Positions 2,461 to 62,365 of a stretch of 64,000 nt of DNA are shown piece after piece. The DNA is taken from the NCBI RefSeq assembly GCF_020164495.1, contig NZ_JAIQYZ010000006.1, positions 1 to 64,000 of the forward strand. The letters are read 5' to 3'. Source of the stretch: Psychroflexus lacisalsi. GTDB lineage: Bacteria; Bacteroidota; Bacteroidia; Flavobacteriales; Flavobacteriaceae. Below the pieces are notes generated by a model. It was given only the letters and a program-made list of their open reading frames with translations, was not told where the DNA came from and did no database searches. A program made the translations under genes and the position numbers. Each line of letters starts with the position of its first letter. Position 1 is the stretch's first letter.

Positions 2461-4133
2461 TTAATTACAAGGGGTTTCGGTTACGGTTTCGTTGTCATTT
2501 TCATCTAACTCTAATTGTTTCCAATTGCTTAAGGTAGCATCTGTGGCTTCATAGAAGGAAATACCGTAATCACCAAAAAGCTCTAAAAAGGTTTTTTCTA
2601 AGTTGCTGCTATTACTATAATCTTCTCTCATTTCTTCCTTAATATATTTTCTTTTTTCATCATCATTATTCCCTTTAGCATTTTGCATATCGGCATCAAT
2701 TTTATCAATAAGGGTTTGAATATTGTCTACTCTTAAAGCATAAGTGATGTTGTTTGGTGCTACAACCATAATAAATACTTCATCATTGAAAACGTCGTAG
2801 GATTCGGTGTGTAGCAATTTAAGAGCTCTTATATCTAGCCAAGAAGGCACTGCAAATTTGCCTTCAGGGTGCGAATGAATTTGGCCTATCCAAGTAGTGG
2901 TATAATTAAAAGGTGATCTTTCATCTGAAGGCCCTTCTTGTAAGCCATCATCATCGGTTACGTTTTTTCTGCCCTCTTCTGACCAAACATTTTTATAGCT
3001 CATAGACCACTCATTGTTACCTGCGCCTAATTTTGTTCTTAATTGGTTGACAACTGGTAATATATCTGAACCTAAACCATCGGTTTGTACTAATCTGTTT
3101 AAGCGTTCACATTTTATATCTTGTAGACACTCTTCTACGGTTCCTCTATCTGCCACACACTCACAAACTTCTTTGCTATTGCCTTGTAAAAGACAAACTT
3201 CATAAGCATCTAATTTACAATCCCCATTTAAATCGCCAGGCGGTGGATTTTCACATTCTTCACCTGGTGGAATAAGTACAGTTATTGGAGTATCGTCAGG
3301 TGATGTGCCATCGCCATTTCCTGAACCACCTCCACCACCCCCTGGATTAGGGTTATTGGTATCGTCCCTTGGATCGGAACCATAATCGGTAGCATCGCAA
3401 TAATAGTAAGGTATTTCATGGTAGCCTGACCACATTGGACTGCTACTAGTACATCCTTGGCAATCATCCCCAGGCATATGACCGCAACCACAGGAATAGG
3501 CTACACTTTCATAAGTTACTATCACTACACCATCACAATTAGTTGGGTAGTAGGGGCTTCCTTGAGGGTCTGGCGGATAGCCACTTCCTGGTTCAGTTGG
3601 GCCACCGCCACCGGATGGTGGTGCATGTGTAATATCATCACAATACCCATTGTTGTAATATTACCTTCGAATACTTGATTTTGATCGTTTAGCCAGTTTT
3701 GGGTTGGTATGTATTGAGTAACAAACATATCAGGTTGTCCGTTCTTGTCCTCAAGAGTAAGATTATAAAAGATACTGCTTTGGTCATTTTCAGAAGTGAT
3801 TCTCATGGTATAAGATTTATAATTACCTAAAGTAACTTCTTTTATGACATCCGTATAAACAGATATACCTAACGTGTCCTTCGTAGTTTTGCCATGTATG
3901 TTTTTTTGTTCTAGTTGCAAGTAAGGGTCAATATTTAACTGAGAAGATAGATTATTAAAAGTTTGTCCTACATTAACTTTGGAAAGTGTTTTTACAGTTG
4001 GTACAAATGCATTATTGTTTTCTTCCAATGATTATTCAACAGCGATGTCTTTTTCGCAAGCATTATTCAAAAGCAAAATTCCAAAAAGCAAGATGCCAAG
4101 TTTGAGATAAGTTACGATTCGTTTTTGTTCCAT
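2461..4133 (-). pseudogene. Lipoprotein with C-terminal JAMM/MPN-like domain, broken by stop codon and frameshift
   Basis: Three open pieces join into one gene of about 555 codons. An ATG at 4131-4133 begins a signal peptide with a lipobox-like LLNNAC, which runs into an in-frame TAA at 4032-4034. The same frame continues (ORF from TTG 4028) to about 3660, where the sense shifts to another frame: the text NNGYCDDITHAPPSGG is read in the frame that ends at 2461. The downstream part has a Gly-Pro-rich linker, a Ca-binding-type loop DLNGDCKLDAYE (about 3187-3235), and a JAMM-like signature, HSH (2869-2877) followed by SWLD (2833-2844), in the H-x-H-x8-S-x-x-D pattern of JAB1/MPN metallopeptidases. 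An upstream catalytic Glu is not assigned. It is probably dead, or the 354-residue distal part may be made alone. Confidence 0.7.
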
Positions 4134-23630: not shown

Positions 23631-24203
23631 TTAATCCTCTTTTTTAGTCTCTTCTTCAGAAGCTTTTTCTTCTTCTGCAGGAGCTTCTGCTTCCGCTTCC
23701 GCAGCTGCTTTAGCCTCTGCTTCTTCTTTTGCTTTTGCTTCTTCCTCTTCCTGAGCAGCTTTAGCTTCAGCTTCACGCTTAGCACTTACTTCTCTTTCCG
23801 CTTCCAATGCTTTTTCTCTTTCTGCTTCTTTAGCTTTCGCCGTTTTTTCTGCAGAAGTCGATATTTTATCCTCTTTTTCAGACATCCAAGCTTCGAATTT
23901 CTTCTCTGCTTCTTCCTCTGTCAACGCTCCTTTGTCAACACCCGCTAACAGGTGTTTTTTCATCATAGCGCCTTTGTAAGATAAAATACGTCTTGCAGTG
24001 TCAGTTGGTTGAGCACCGTTTCTTAACCATTTCACAGATGAATCTAGGTCTAGTTCAATAGTTGCAGGTTGAGTTACAGGATTATAAACGCCTAATTTCT
24101 CTAGGTATTTACCATCTCTTTTTGAACGAACATCTGCAGCGACGATCCAGTAAAAAGGTTTTCCTTTCTTACCGTGTCTTTGTAATCTTATTTTAACTGG
24201 CAT
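23631..24203 (-). CDS. rpsP: 30S ribosomal protein S16 with long charged C-terminal tail
   Basis: 190 residues. The first 80 or so are a standard S16 (MPVKIRLQRHGKKGKPFYWIV, YNPVTQP, WLRNGAQPTDTARRIL). The remaining part, about 110 residues, includes an Ala/Glu/Lys-rich low-complexity tail with repeated EAEAKA-like steps and probable coiled-coil character. Extended S16 forms are common in this phylum, so this is probably normal. It is cotranscribed with rimM. Confidence 0.96.
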   Translation of the reverse strand: MPVKIRLQRHGKKGKPFYWIVAADVRSKRDGKYLEKLGVYNPVTQPATIELDLDSSVKWLRNGAQPTDTARRILSYKGAMMKKHLLAGVDKGALTEEEAEKKFEAWMSEKEDKISTSAEKTAKAKEAEREKALEAEREVSAKREAEAKAAQEEEEAKAKEEAEAKAAAEAEAEAPAEEEKASEEETKKED

Positions 24204-61344: not shown

Positions 61345-61417
61345 GGTGCCTTAGCTCAGTTGGTAGAGCAATGGACTGAAAATCCATGTGTCCCTGGTTC
61401 GATTCCTGGAGGCACCA
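61345..61417 (+). tRNA. tRNA-Phe (GAA)
   Basis: A 73-base cloverleaf. The acceptor stem GGTGCCT pairs fully with AGGCACC, and the discriminator is A at 61417. The D-loop has TAGCTCAGTTGG. The anticodon loop CTGAAAA carries GAA, read as Phe, in a stem ATGGA/TCCAT. The T-loop is TTCGATTC. The T-stem CCTGG/CCTGG has one T-T mismatch in the middle. CCA is not encoded in full (ACC then T). The 3' part is repeated downstream in altered form. Confidence 0.97.
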
Positions 61418-61423
61418 CCTTTT

Positions 61424-61455
61424 AAACCTTAACTTTAATTAGTTGAGGTTTTTTT
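61424..61455 (+). terminator. tRNA-Phe terminator
   Basis: AACCTTAACT (61425-61434) pairs with AGTTGAGGTT (61441-61450) around TTAATT, followed by a T run. Copies lie at 61794-61825 and, with one A-to-G change, at 62164-62195. Confidence 0.85.
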
Positions 61456-61466
61456 ATTTTTAGTCT

Positions 61467-61748
61467 ATGCATTTTCTTTATATCATTTACAGTCCTAAAA
61501 CCAATAAATTTTATGTCGGTGAAACTAAAAATGTTGAGCAAAGGCTTGCCTTGCATAATCAGCACAGCTTTAAAAAAGCATTCACTACCAGTGCTAAGAA
61601 CTGGGTCATTAAATTATCTTTTGAGTGCAAGTCCAGAGAAGAAGCTTTAGATCTGGAACAGTTTATTAAACGAATGAAAAGTAAAGTCTTTATCCAAAAA
61701 ATCATCAAGGATCCTAATATTCTAAAAGATATTCTCAATAAAAAATAA
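61467..61748 (+). CDS. Small GIY-YIG endonuclease, copy 1
   Basis: 93 residues, one GIY-YIG domain of the small UPF0213/YhbQ-like size. The motif reads LYIIYS (4-9) and FYVGET (15-20). The catalytic Arg is probably Arg26 in EQRLALHN and the metal Glu is Glu64 in LDLEQFIKR. No DNA-binding domain is attached. It begins just 12 bases after the tRNA-Phe terminator T run, with no promoter or good ribosome site recognised, so expression may depend on readthrough from the tRNA. Its stop is followed at once by an altered copy of the tRNA 3' end. Family sure; role (mobile, repair, or tRNA-site nuclease) unknown. Confidence 0.9.
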   Translation: MHFLYIIYSPKTNKFYVGETKNVEQRLALHNQHSFKKAFTTSAKNWVIKLSFECKSREEALDLEQFIKRMKSKVFIQKIIKDPNILKDILNKK

Positions 61749-61836
61749 GTCCCTGGTTCCCCCGAAGCGTCGGGGCTGGAGGCACCACCTTTTAAACCTT
61801 AACTTTAATTAGTTGAGGTTTTTTTATTTTTAGTCT

Positions 61837-62118
61837 ATGCATTTTCTTTATATCATTTACAGTCCTAAAACCAATAAATTTTATGTCGGTGAAACTAAAA
61901 ATGTTGAGCAAAGGCTTGCCTTGCATAATCAGCACAGCTTTAAAAAAGCATTCACTACCAGTGCTAAGAACTGGGTCATTAAATTATCTTTTGAGTGCAA
62001 GTCCAGAGAAGAAGCTTTAGATCTGGAACAGTTTATTAAACGAATGAAAAGTAAAGTCTTTATCCAAAAAATCATCAAGGATCCTAATATTCTAAAAGAT
62101 ATTCTCAATAAAAAATAA
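61837..62118 (+). CDS. Small GIY-YIG endonuclease, copy 2
   Basis: 93 residues, with the same protein as copy 1 and apparently the same DNA, so the duplication is recent or kept uniform by gene conversion. All motif residues (Tyr5, Tyr16, Gly18, Arg26, Glu64) are present. It sits in the same frame of tRNA fragment, terminator and ORF. Confidence 0.9.
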   Translation: MHFLYIIYSPKTNKFYVGETKNVEQRLALHNQHSFKKAFTTSAKNWVIKLSFECKSREEALDLEQFIKRMKSKVFIQKIIKDPNILKDILNKK

Positions 62119-62206
62119 GTCCCTGGTTCCCCCGAAGCGTCGGGGCTGGAGGCACCACCTTTTAAACCTTAGCTTTAATTAGTTGAGGTTTTTTTATTTT
62201 TAGTCT

Positions 62207-62365
62207 ATGCATTTTCTTTATATCATTTACAGTCCTAAAACCCATAAATTTTATGTCGGTGAAACTAAAAATGTTGATAAAAGACTGGAAGTGCATAATT
62301 CACATACATTCAATGGAGCGTTTACTAAAGGTGCAGAAAATATCAAAAAAGGGGCTTGCTTATAA
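62207..62365 (+). pseudogene. GIY-YIG endonuclease, copy 3, truncated chimera
   Basis: 52 residues. The first 23 codons match copies 1 and 2 except Asn13 to His. From codon 24 the text changes to a related but different GIY-YIG protein (VDKRLEVHNSHTFNGAFTKG), then ends early after IKKGACL. The GIY, YIG and Arg motifs remain, but the C-terminal helix with the metal Glu is lost, so nuclease activity is unlikely. It suggests recombination between two paralogues followed by an internal deletion. Confidence 0.8.

Follow-up and report, generated by a model that had tools for sequence, protein, structure and literature searches.

The short GIY-YIG nuclease genes that stand in tandem behind a tRNA-Phe gene of Psychroflexus lacisalsi are best explained, with a probability of about two in three, as members of a large family of selfish, free-standing, homing-type GIY-YIG elements that in Bacteroidota reside on genes for structured RNAs, mostly tRNAs. 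An element consists of a small single-domain GIY-YIG gene combined with a duplicate of part of its target tRNA. On the side of the tRNA, it carries or has duplicated the tRNA's own end and trailer; since the element supplies this spare end and trailer, the host tRNA remains whole. The far side holds a remnant of the same tRNA, one arm of which (T, anticodon or D) has its loop exchanged for a foreign hairpin. We observe this anatomy and its recurrence, purifying selection between close pairs of nuclease genes, covariation within the hairpins, tandem arrays, satellites, decayed copies and a patchy occupancy of target sites. Loci and genomes are referred to by our own numbers (L and G, respectively).

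The array behind tRNA-Phe

The window, i.e., the whole 64-kb stretch of DNA that was analysed, contains one tRNA according to ARAGORN, namely tRNA-Phe. It leads into a tandem array (61406-62277; period 370 bp, 2.4 copies, 99% matches) with the following features:

61345-61419, + strand: tRNA-Phe(GAA), called by ARAGORN; its 3' end runs into a trailer that is copied in every unit
61420-61466, + strand: first trailer, a terminator-like hairpin and T run that recur in each unit (sequence reading)
61467-61748, + strand: GIY-YIG nuclease ORF, copy 1, 93 aa (ORF list, PF01541)
61749-61789, + strand: tRNA-Phe remnant 1, composed of GTCCCTGGTTC, a hairpin at 61760-61775 and CTGGAGGCACCACC; the T-loop GATTC is swapped out
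61790-61836, + strand: second copy of the trailer/terminator (sequence reading)
61837-62118, + strand: GIY-YIG nuclease ORF, copy 2, same as copy 1 (ORF comparison)
62119-62159, + strand: tRNA-Phe remnant 2, with its hairpin at 62130-62145 (sequence reading, two-block search)
62160-62206, + strand: third copy of the trailer, one base differs (sequence reading)
62207-62365, + strand: truncated chimeric GIY-YIG ORF, 52 aa (PF01541); its start is like that of copies 1 and 2

The sequence-only reading of this DNA had described a full tRNA-Phe followed by a 370-bp GIY-YIG array with two identical 93-residue ORFs and a chimeric third one. This description holds: ARAGORN places the tRNA at 61345-61419, the period is 370, translation yields identical 93-aa proteins for copies 1 and 2, which are spaced exactly 370 bp, and both the first and the third ORF match PF01541. 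The remainder of the chimeric ORF 62207-62365 probably derives from a diverged copy, and no tRNA remnant is seen after it. The same reading took the tRNA piece of each unit for a plain 3' end. It is indeed a 3' part of tRNA-Phe, but behind the full ORFs it is not a plain end: both remnants show CCCCGAAGCGTCGGGG in place of the T-loop GATTC, i.e., 16 nt with a perfect 6-bp hairpin, such that the order after a full ORF is GTCCCTGGTTC-CCCCGAAGCGTCGGGG-CTGGAGGCACCACC, followed by the copy of the tRNA trailer. The fold energy of the remnant in the window is ordinary when compared with shuffled sequences (z -0.08). Within the amplified units, ARAGORN calls no second tRNA. In the T-stem of the window's tRNA-Phe, the middle pair is a T-T mismatch, and the ARAGORN bracket of a relative (L064) is open at this pair as well.

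The start codon of the window ORF is located 11 nt past the T run of the trailer, so that the ORF is probably expressed by read-through from the tRNA promoter. Comparing trailers across loci with duplicates left out, the left and right trailer of the same unit have a median identity of 0.90 (85 units, 55 of them at 0.8 or above) vs. 0.62 for trailers between loci of the same tRNA (78 comparisons, 7 at 0.8 or above).

The window array may be an assembly error, as it stems from a 53-contig draft. Similar arrays are found in single-contig genomes, i.e., G010 with two ORFs 382 bp apart and G025 with 168-bp units. Elsewhere in the window (23650-23742), short repeats of 6 and 21 bp (TCTTCTGCAGAAGC...) are present, which are apparently unrelated to the nuclease array.

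The nuclease is a bare GIY-YIG domain

The PF01541 (GIY-YIG) scan of the window array took in its first and third ORF. Here, the first ORF matches with an E-value of 8.3e-16 and 58.5 bits, given a cut-off of 22.6, and the chimeric third ORF with 6.1e-9. Residues found invariant in all 20 aligned members (20/20) include Y5, Y16, G18, R26, H30 and E64, among which we take Y5, Y16, R26 and E64 to be the conserved Tyr, Tyr, Arg and Glu of the GIY-YIG active site. No domain other than GIY-YIG is matched in the 93-aa window protein, i.e., it is a bare catalytic domain, and among ORFs of at least 50 aa no partner gene is evident inside the 370-bp unit. The nearest solved structures by profile are 1zg2 (E 4.2e-12), 1ywl (7.3e-10) and SLX1 7cq2 (5.5e-5).

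Three other identities were considered and rejected. A group I intron endonuclease (TIGR01453) scores 25.2 bits, which is under the NCBIfam cut-off of 56.05. An integrase-bearing, tRNA-targeting integrative element does not fit, as the scanned unit ORFs match GIY-YIG alone. Finally, carriage by phages or plasmids was discarded: the window protein has no match (0) in 50,697 phage records and a single weak one in the plasmid search, and none (0) of the 123 pattern matches in viral contigs is a relative.

Recurrence at tRNA genes of many kinds

Within the genome of the window, PF01541 yields nine matches. Three are those of the window array, and another three belong to long reading frames of 604, 475 and 237 aa. 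One (L003) is a short ORF for which no tRNA is called and no other RNA gene is seen nearby, while two more are found at tRNA-Asn. At the first (L004), tRNA-Asn is followed by a GIY-YIG ORF 64 bp downstream and then by a tRNA-Asn 3' end, the T-loop of which is replaced by CCCCGATAGGTATCGGGG. The second (L005) shows the same type of pieces without a tRNA body, a stop within the ORF and a different right-hand trailer.

We searched the window protein in 60 genomes including its own and obtained matches in 26/60. When named genomes were scanned, 93 relatives were found, from which 78 loci were taken; by title, these stem from Flavobacteriaceae and further Bacteroidota. A tRNA on the same strand is located within 200 bp at 64/78 of these loci, while one on the opposite strand is observed at 0/78. 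Among the other 14/78, the tRNA is 279-605 bp off in three (L094, L112, L117), and in eight less than 1 kb of sequence is present upstream of the locus (L068, where the contig start truncates a run of units, L069, L106, L125, L126, L129, L136, L137); L091 has a tRNA-Phe end without body and L138 an apparent tRNA-Asn end. The last one, L075 of Aquimarina litoralis (2880-3760), contains Ns as well as a tRNA-Phe whose T-loop is damaged, and is probably an assembly collapse inside such an array. Only five tRNA labels occur in the named set because the query is of Phe type.

For a phylum-wide view, we queried 80 Bacteroidota genomes (E 1e-15) with a profile built from 20 diverse members; 41/80 genomes matched, two of them Psychroflexus. 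Every listed match outside Psychroflexus was kept, which resulted in 87 loci. Based on ARAGORN, a same-strand tRNA is found within 200 bp at 70/87 loci and an opposite-strand one at 1/87. As a rough estimate that assumes one tRNA per 64 kb, a random ORF would be that close to a same-strand tRNA in about 0.3% of cases; that is, the linkage to tRNAs is far above this rough chance expectation. The search of relatives for short GIY-YIG ORFs beside tRNAs, as proposed by the sequence-only reading, was thus productive in the phylum as well as in the named set, and what emerges is recurrence across the phylum rather than a single resident gene that is linked to tRNA ends nowhere else. Several genomes of the sample hold the element five or more times.

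The 70 tRNA-linked loci divide into 60 with the element on the 3' side of the tRNA, where the median distance is 50 bp, and 10 with the element on its 5' side. Except for an odd 66-nt call (L226), the called tRNAs (69/70) are canonical in length, T-loop and anticodon loop, such that at the sequence level the host gene is preserved at 69/87 loci; ARAGORN may call remnants as tRNAs, too (e.g., SeC at L032 and L047), so these calls are no proof of function. The canonical set covers 24 anticodon labels and 15 amino acids (Ala, Arg, Asn, Asp, Cys, Gln, Gly, Leu, Lys, Met, Phe, Pro, Ser, Thr, Val). The remaining 17/87 loci comprise nine with tRNA pieces detected by eye (L173, L180, L193, L203, L221, L222, L224, L254, L184), four in which the contig extends no more than 132 bp beyond the first ORF on its upstream side (L170, L185, L196, L204), two within RNase P RNA genes (L227, L244), and L253 and L237, where neither a tRNA nor another RNA gene is seen near the ORF.

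Remnants with a swapped arm

Remnants were identified by a two-block search of the interval from the tRNA to the far border. Gapped local alignment was dropped, as it often masked the hairpins as mismatches. A two-block remnant with a stem of at least 5 is found for 70/111 phylum ORFs. We further considered compact inserts, i.e., those of 10-32 nt for which no stem is required, counting distinct remnants with duplicate loci left out. Here, a perfect stem of at least 6 is present in 37/53 inserts of the phylum set (from 111 ORFs; shuffled mean 0.7) and in 65/78 of the genus-plus-named set (from 177 ORFs; shuffled mean 0.8).

The arm concerned differs between tRNAs. It is mostly the T arm for Phe, Asp, Leu and Ser, and also for 5'-side elements at Cys in Psychroflexus; mostly the anticodon arm for Pro, Lys, Val, Arg(tct) and Gly(tcc); and either of the two for Asn and Met. 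The D arm is mostly met in 5'-side elements at Arg, Ser and Pro. In several anticodon cases, e.g., Pro(cgg) and Lys, the whole 17-nt stem-loop is replaced by a hairpin of similar size. When a strict rule is used and duplicate loci are left out, 57/64 inserts touch a loop (random mean 47.0; 1/2000 shuffles as high) and in a second set 71/85 (random mean 60.6; 10/2000 as high), while 7/64 and 14/85 are off any loop. The preference of the inserts for loops is therefore real but moderate.

The hairpins covary. We compiled 29 distinct T-loop inserts from 45 loci, duplicate loci left out, for which the flanking tRNA sequence and not the fold served as the criterion of choice; being related sequences, they do not represent independent events. 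The first pair is CG in 17 and TA in 12 inserts, the second CG in 26 and TA in 3, both with zero mismatches. For pairs 3 to 6 there are one to three exceptions each, and the bases of the loop vary.

We also considered whether the hairpin is a dispersed palindrome of the REP kind, which was rejected: the pattern CCCGAN{2,6}TCGGG has 7 sites in the 3.0 Mb of the window genome vs. 8 for the reversed-pattern control, and 4 of the 7 are located in GIY-YIG/tRNA remnants.

Insertions into RNase P RNA

Two loci of the phylum set carry the ORF inside an RNase P RNA gene, i.e., L227 (1403-1706, - strand; RF00010 157.8 bits) and L244 (1509-1812, + strand; RF00010 196.9 bits). In both, the ORF occupies the position of the P3 loop and is flanked by 24-nt arms, the complementarity of which is 92% and 100%, respectively. 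Searching 29 genomes of that family with RF00010 gave matches in 28. The resulting survey of rnpB covers 29 loci (28 rnpB and one weak second match), from which the 15 with an exact AGGAAAGTCCGG were inspected. L274 and L276 belong to the genus of L227 and L244, and their P3 is short and unoccupied. In L281, there is a strong GIY-YIG signal at the same place as in L244, and in L267 a weak one, while L282 shows a long, relic-like P3. These insertions support the view that the niche of the elements is given by loops of structured RNA genes and not by the ends of tRNAs in themselves. They also suggest that a helix of an essential ribozyme gene can accommodate an ORF.

Occupancy of tRNA-Phe and minimal units

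One tRNA-Phe match each was obtained in 25/27 Psychroflexus genomes, and we classified these 25 sites by eye. An intact ORF is found downstream at 5 sites (G000, G004, G008, G020, G022), and an ORF that is damaged, shortened or cut off at another 5 (G003, where the ORF start runs past the contig end, G009, G012, G021, G025). There are 2 sites with ORF-less hairpin units (G013, and G024 as far as the contig end), 5 with relics (G001, G002, G005, G019, G026) and 7 at which no element is seen (G010, G011, G014, G015, G017, G018, G023), while 1 site coincides with a contig end (G006). That is, the strain comparison proposed earlier reveals a presence/absence polymorphism with decayed copies, ranging from intact elements via relics to sites with none seen.

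The array of G013 is an ORF-less tandem of 95 bp. Satellite-like derivatives of this kind, i.e., ORF-less tandem units of 95-100 bp at tRNA-Phe, are seen at L158 (1562-1877) and L143, the units of which hold only the hairpin T-arm, the acceptor end and the terminator. The single-contig genome G025 (L163, 580-1513) has a 168-bp tandem at tRNA-Phe with a shortened ORF. Given these ORF-less 95-bp and shortened 168-bp tandems, the minimal amplifying unit seems to consist of hairpin arm, acceptor end and trailer. A further observation concerns L150, L152, L162 and L165, where an internal tRNA-Phe fragment, tagagcaaaggactgaaaat (one base differs in L165), is located about 60 bp upstream of the tRNA; it is perhaps the relic of a 5'-side element.

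The arrays could also be the product of a resident gene that was passively duplicated by unequal crossing-over between tRNA ends without any mobility. The identity of copies 1 and 2 in the window at their exact spacing would fit such a process, as tRNA-sized direct repeats favour slippage, and unequal crossing-over, which the sequence-only reading had named as an alternative, may well explain the copy number within an array. It does not account for the recurrence of the tRNA-remnant design at unrelated tRNAs, which serve 15 amino acids in the phylum sample, nor for the patchy occupancy of the 25 Psychroflexus sites, units that lack an ORF, or the unit-like piece without tRNA body elsewhere in the window genome (L005). 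As an account of the whole, we thus rate passive duplication as very improbable. A tRNA-linked, self-amplifying mobile unit without integrase, which was the main proposal of the sequence-only reading, is strongly supported in view of the many tRNAs, the arrays, the ORF-less satellites and the relics.

Selection on the nuclease

We compared ORFs of the same locus and between loci, with duplicate loci left out of both dN/dS sets. The 62 same-locus pairs comprise 6 identical ones, 23 with dS outside 0.15-1.2 and 33 usable ones. All usable same-array pairs (33/33) have a dN/dS below 1 (median 0.14); 26/33 of them stem from one eight-copy array (L055), and the medians of the other five loci are 0.07-0.22. 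For all 353 between-locus pairs, dN/dS ranges from 0.04 to 1.05 with 351 values below 1 and a median of 0.54, which is that high because distant pairs saturate. When restricted to disjoint between-locus pairs with dS below 0.7, the range is 0.07-0.25; the exception among disjoint pairs is the distant pair of L084 with L177 (1.00). Purifying selection acts on the nuclease, and diverged tandem copies are no exception to this; for this reading, we put the weight on close pairs.

Purifying selection that includes tandem copies would also be expected if the host had adopted the nuclease to maintain, duplicate or convert its tRNA genes. A precedent is SegB, which according to the available part of PMC13096335 drives the amplification of tRNA-segB in T6. 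The amplified window units contain no second called tRNA, and at 19/25 Psychroflexus tRNA-Phe sites (by eye) the ORF is absent, damaged or cut off, with one more site at a contig end; both observations speak against a host function, which we thus consider quite unlikely.

Relation between nuclease and target tRNA

The tree was built from 96 proteins, with Phe thinned to 14 and duplicate loci left out, and replaces an earlier tree of 144 rows. Labelled by tRNA, it requires 28 changes compared to 71 on shuffles (minimum 64). Labels for the arm change 19 times (34.7 shuffled) and those for the side 10 times (13.4 shuffled), where all these tests use related sequences and not independent events. 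A Pro clade spans four families (five rows, support 94), and Lys groups within one family (three rows, 94), while the labels Val, Ser-D and Arg-D cluster not at all or barely, and many forks are unresolved. Overall, the nuclease tree largely tracks the target tRNA.

We also asked for each protein whether it is nearer to a same-tRNA protein of another family or to an element of its own genome, limited to the loci of G-numbered genomes without duplicates. The former holds for 39/52 proteins (19 genomes) and the opposite for 13/52; given equal candidate numbers, p is 0.0004 for these non-independent comparisons.

That proteins tend to follow the tRNA species would likewise be expected if the nuclease acted on RNA, i.e., if it cleaved tRNA transcripts at the arm as a toxin or regulatory RNase, with the remnant being a resistant or regulatory RNA. 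The covarying hairpin retained at the swapped arm would suit this, as would the sense orientation of the ORF downstream of the tRNA, which leaves little space for a promoter of its own. On the other hand, sequence comparison places UPF0213 and SLX1, a DNA structure-specific nuclease, nearest among the solved relatives, the 370-bp unit has no evident partner gene among ORFs of at least 50 aa, and both the ORF-less satellites and the RNase P insertions suit a DNA element better. We therefore regard cleavage at the RNA level as unlikely.

Candidate mechanism

For the preferred reading, a mobile DNA element of homing type, we infer the following course of events from the sequences. The nuclease would cut target tRNA genes at the arm concerned, and recombination via the tRNA sequences that flank the break would copy the unit in. 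With its arm swapped, the element's own copy of the target would be uncuttable, while homology is kept on both sides. Tandem copies would then result from recombination between units. DNA cutting, the position of the cut, the resistance of the remnant and homing itself are thus putative properties of these GIY-YIG elements. The chief weakness of the scheme is that target immunity alone does not explain the uncut host: the arm is swapped in the remnant, while the adjoining intact tRNA retains the presumed target site, so simple immunity cannot explain why the host is spared.

A more specific version of the mobile element, which we put forward tentatively and hold to be possible but doubtful, is structure-guided. 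Here, an SLX1-like nuclease would recognise stem-loops instead of long DNA sequences, where the stem-loops of RNA genes may be presented either as extruded DNA hairpins or as RNA. It would insert its own gene at the loop, and a foreign hairpin would replace the target arm. Structure-specific recognition is possible because UPF0213 and SLX1 are the nearest solved structures. The piece of hairpin, acceptor end and trailer would be the minimal amplifying unit and give rise to ORF-less satellites at tRNA genes, and RNase P RNA with a nuclease ORF in its P3 loop would represent the purest form.

Relation to known systems

Elements with a tyrosine integrase that insert at tRNA 3' ends duplicate that end, and the tRNA survives. 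The elements studied here likewise duplicate a tRNA end and preserve the tRNA. The window unit differs in its size of 370 bp and in having no integrase match; moreover, the far tRNA copy is hairpin-swapped, and some units are located on the 5' side. With UPF0213 and SLX1, the closest solved structures by profile, they share the single GIY-YIG domain; to our knowledge, neither of the two has been described as a mobile element tied to tRNA genes.

The closest systems known are SegB, along with other free-standing GIY-YIG homing endonucleases of T-even phages, and the mobile ORFs (mORFs) of fungal mitochondria. According to the available part of PMC13096335, SegB of T-even phages is encoded by a free-standing GIY-YIG gene, which is met close to tRNAs of widely varied isotypes, and undergoes tandem segmental amplification together with the tRNA locus. 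Free-standing GIY-YIG genes, tRNA adjacency and tandem amplification are thus common to both systems. Unlike the phage-borne SegB, the Bacteroidota elements are found in bacterial contigs, the window protein has 0 matches in phage records, and a partial tRNA with a swapped hairpin arm is not mentioned for SegB in that part of PMC13096335.

A second analogy is given by the mORFs of fungal mitochondria, known from atp6 of Allomyces and atp6/atp9/cox2/nad3 of Glomus, which bring along a replacement of the gene's 3' end. As described in the available part of PMC3630166, the order is core gene, inserted end, endonuclease ORF and displaced native end; one case (atp9) is GIY-YIG, and biochemical work established that mobility is due to the endonuclease. 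Our elements share with them the replacement end next to an endonuclease ORF, but reside in bacterial tRNA genes, and mORFs in mitochondrial protein genes. The hairpin swap, the 5'-side form, the tandem array and the RNase P case find no mention for mORFs in this part of the paper.

In the available part of a GIY-YIG survey from 2006 (PMC1564403), the term "tRNA" appears three times and never with regard to gene neighbourhoods. The family is not described in the available parts of PMC13096335, PMC3630166, PMC1564403 and PMC7641849, and we found no description of it in the open-access literature, a scope outside of which most subscription papers and preprints lie. Overall, the interpretation given by the sequence-only reading is partly supported, while the use of the anticodon and D arms, the elements on the 5' side of tRNAs and the relatives in RNase P RNA had escaped it.

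Significance

Genes for tRNAs are among the most constrained and, at the same time, most invaded sites of bacterial genomes. Here, a gene of about 280 bp, for which neither integrase nor intron is seen, is attached to many kinds of tRNA within one phylum. If our reading is true, it explains why short nuclease genes accumulate beside the tRNAs of Bacteroidota. It would furthermore yield nucleases matched to individual tRNA arms, and it would make testable how a minimal nuclease locates the loops of RNA genes and spares its host.
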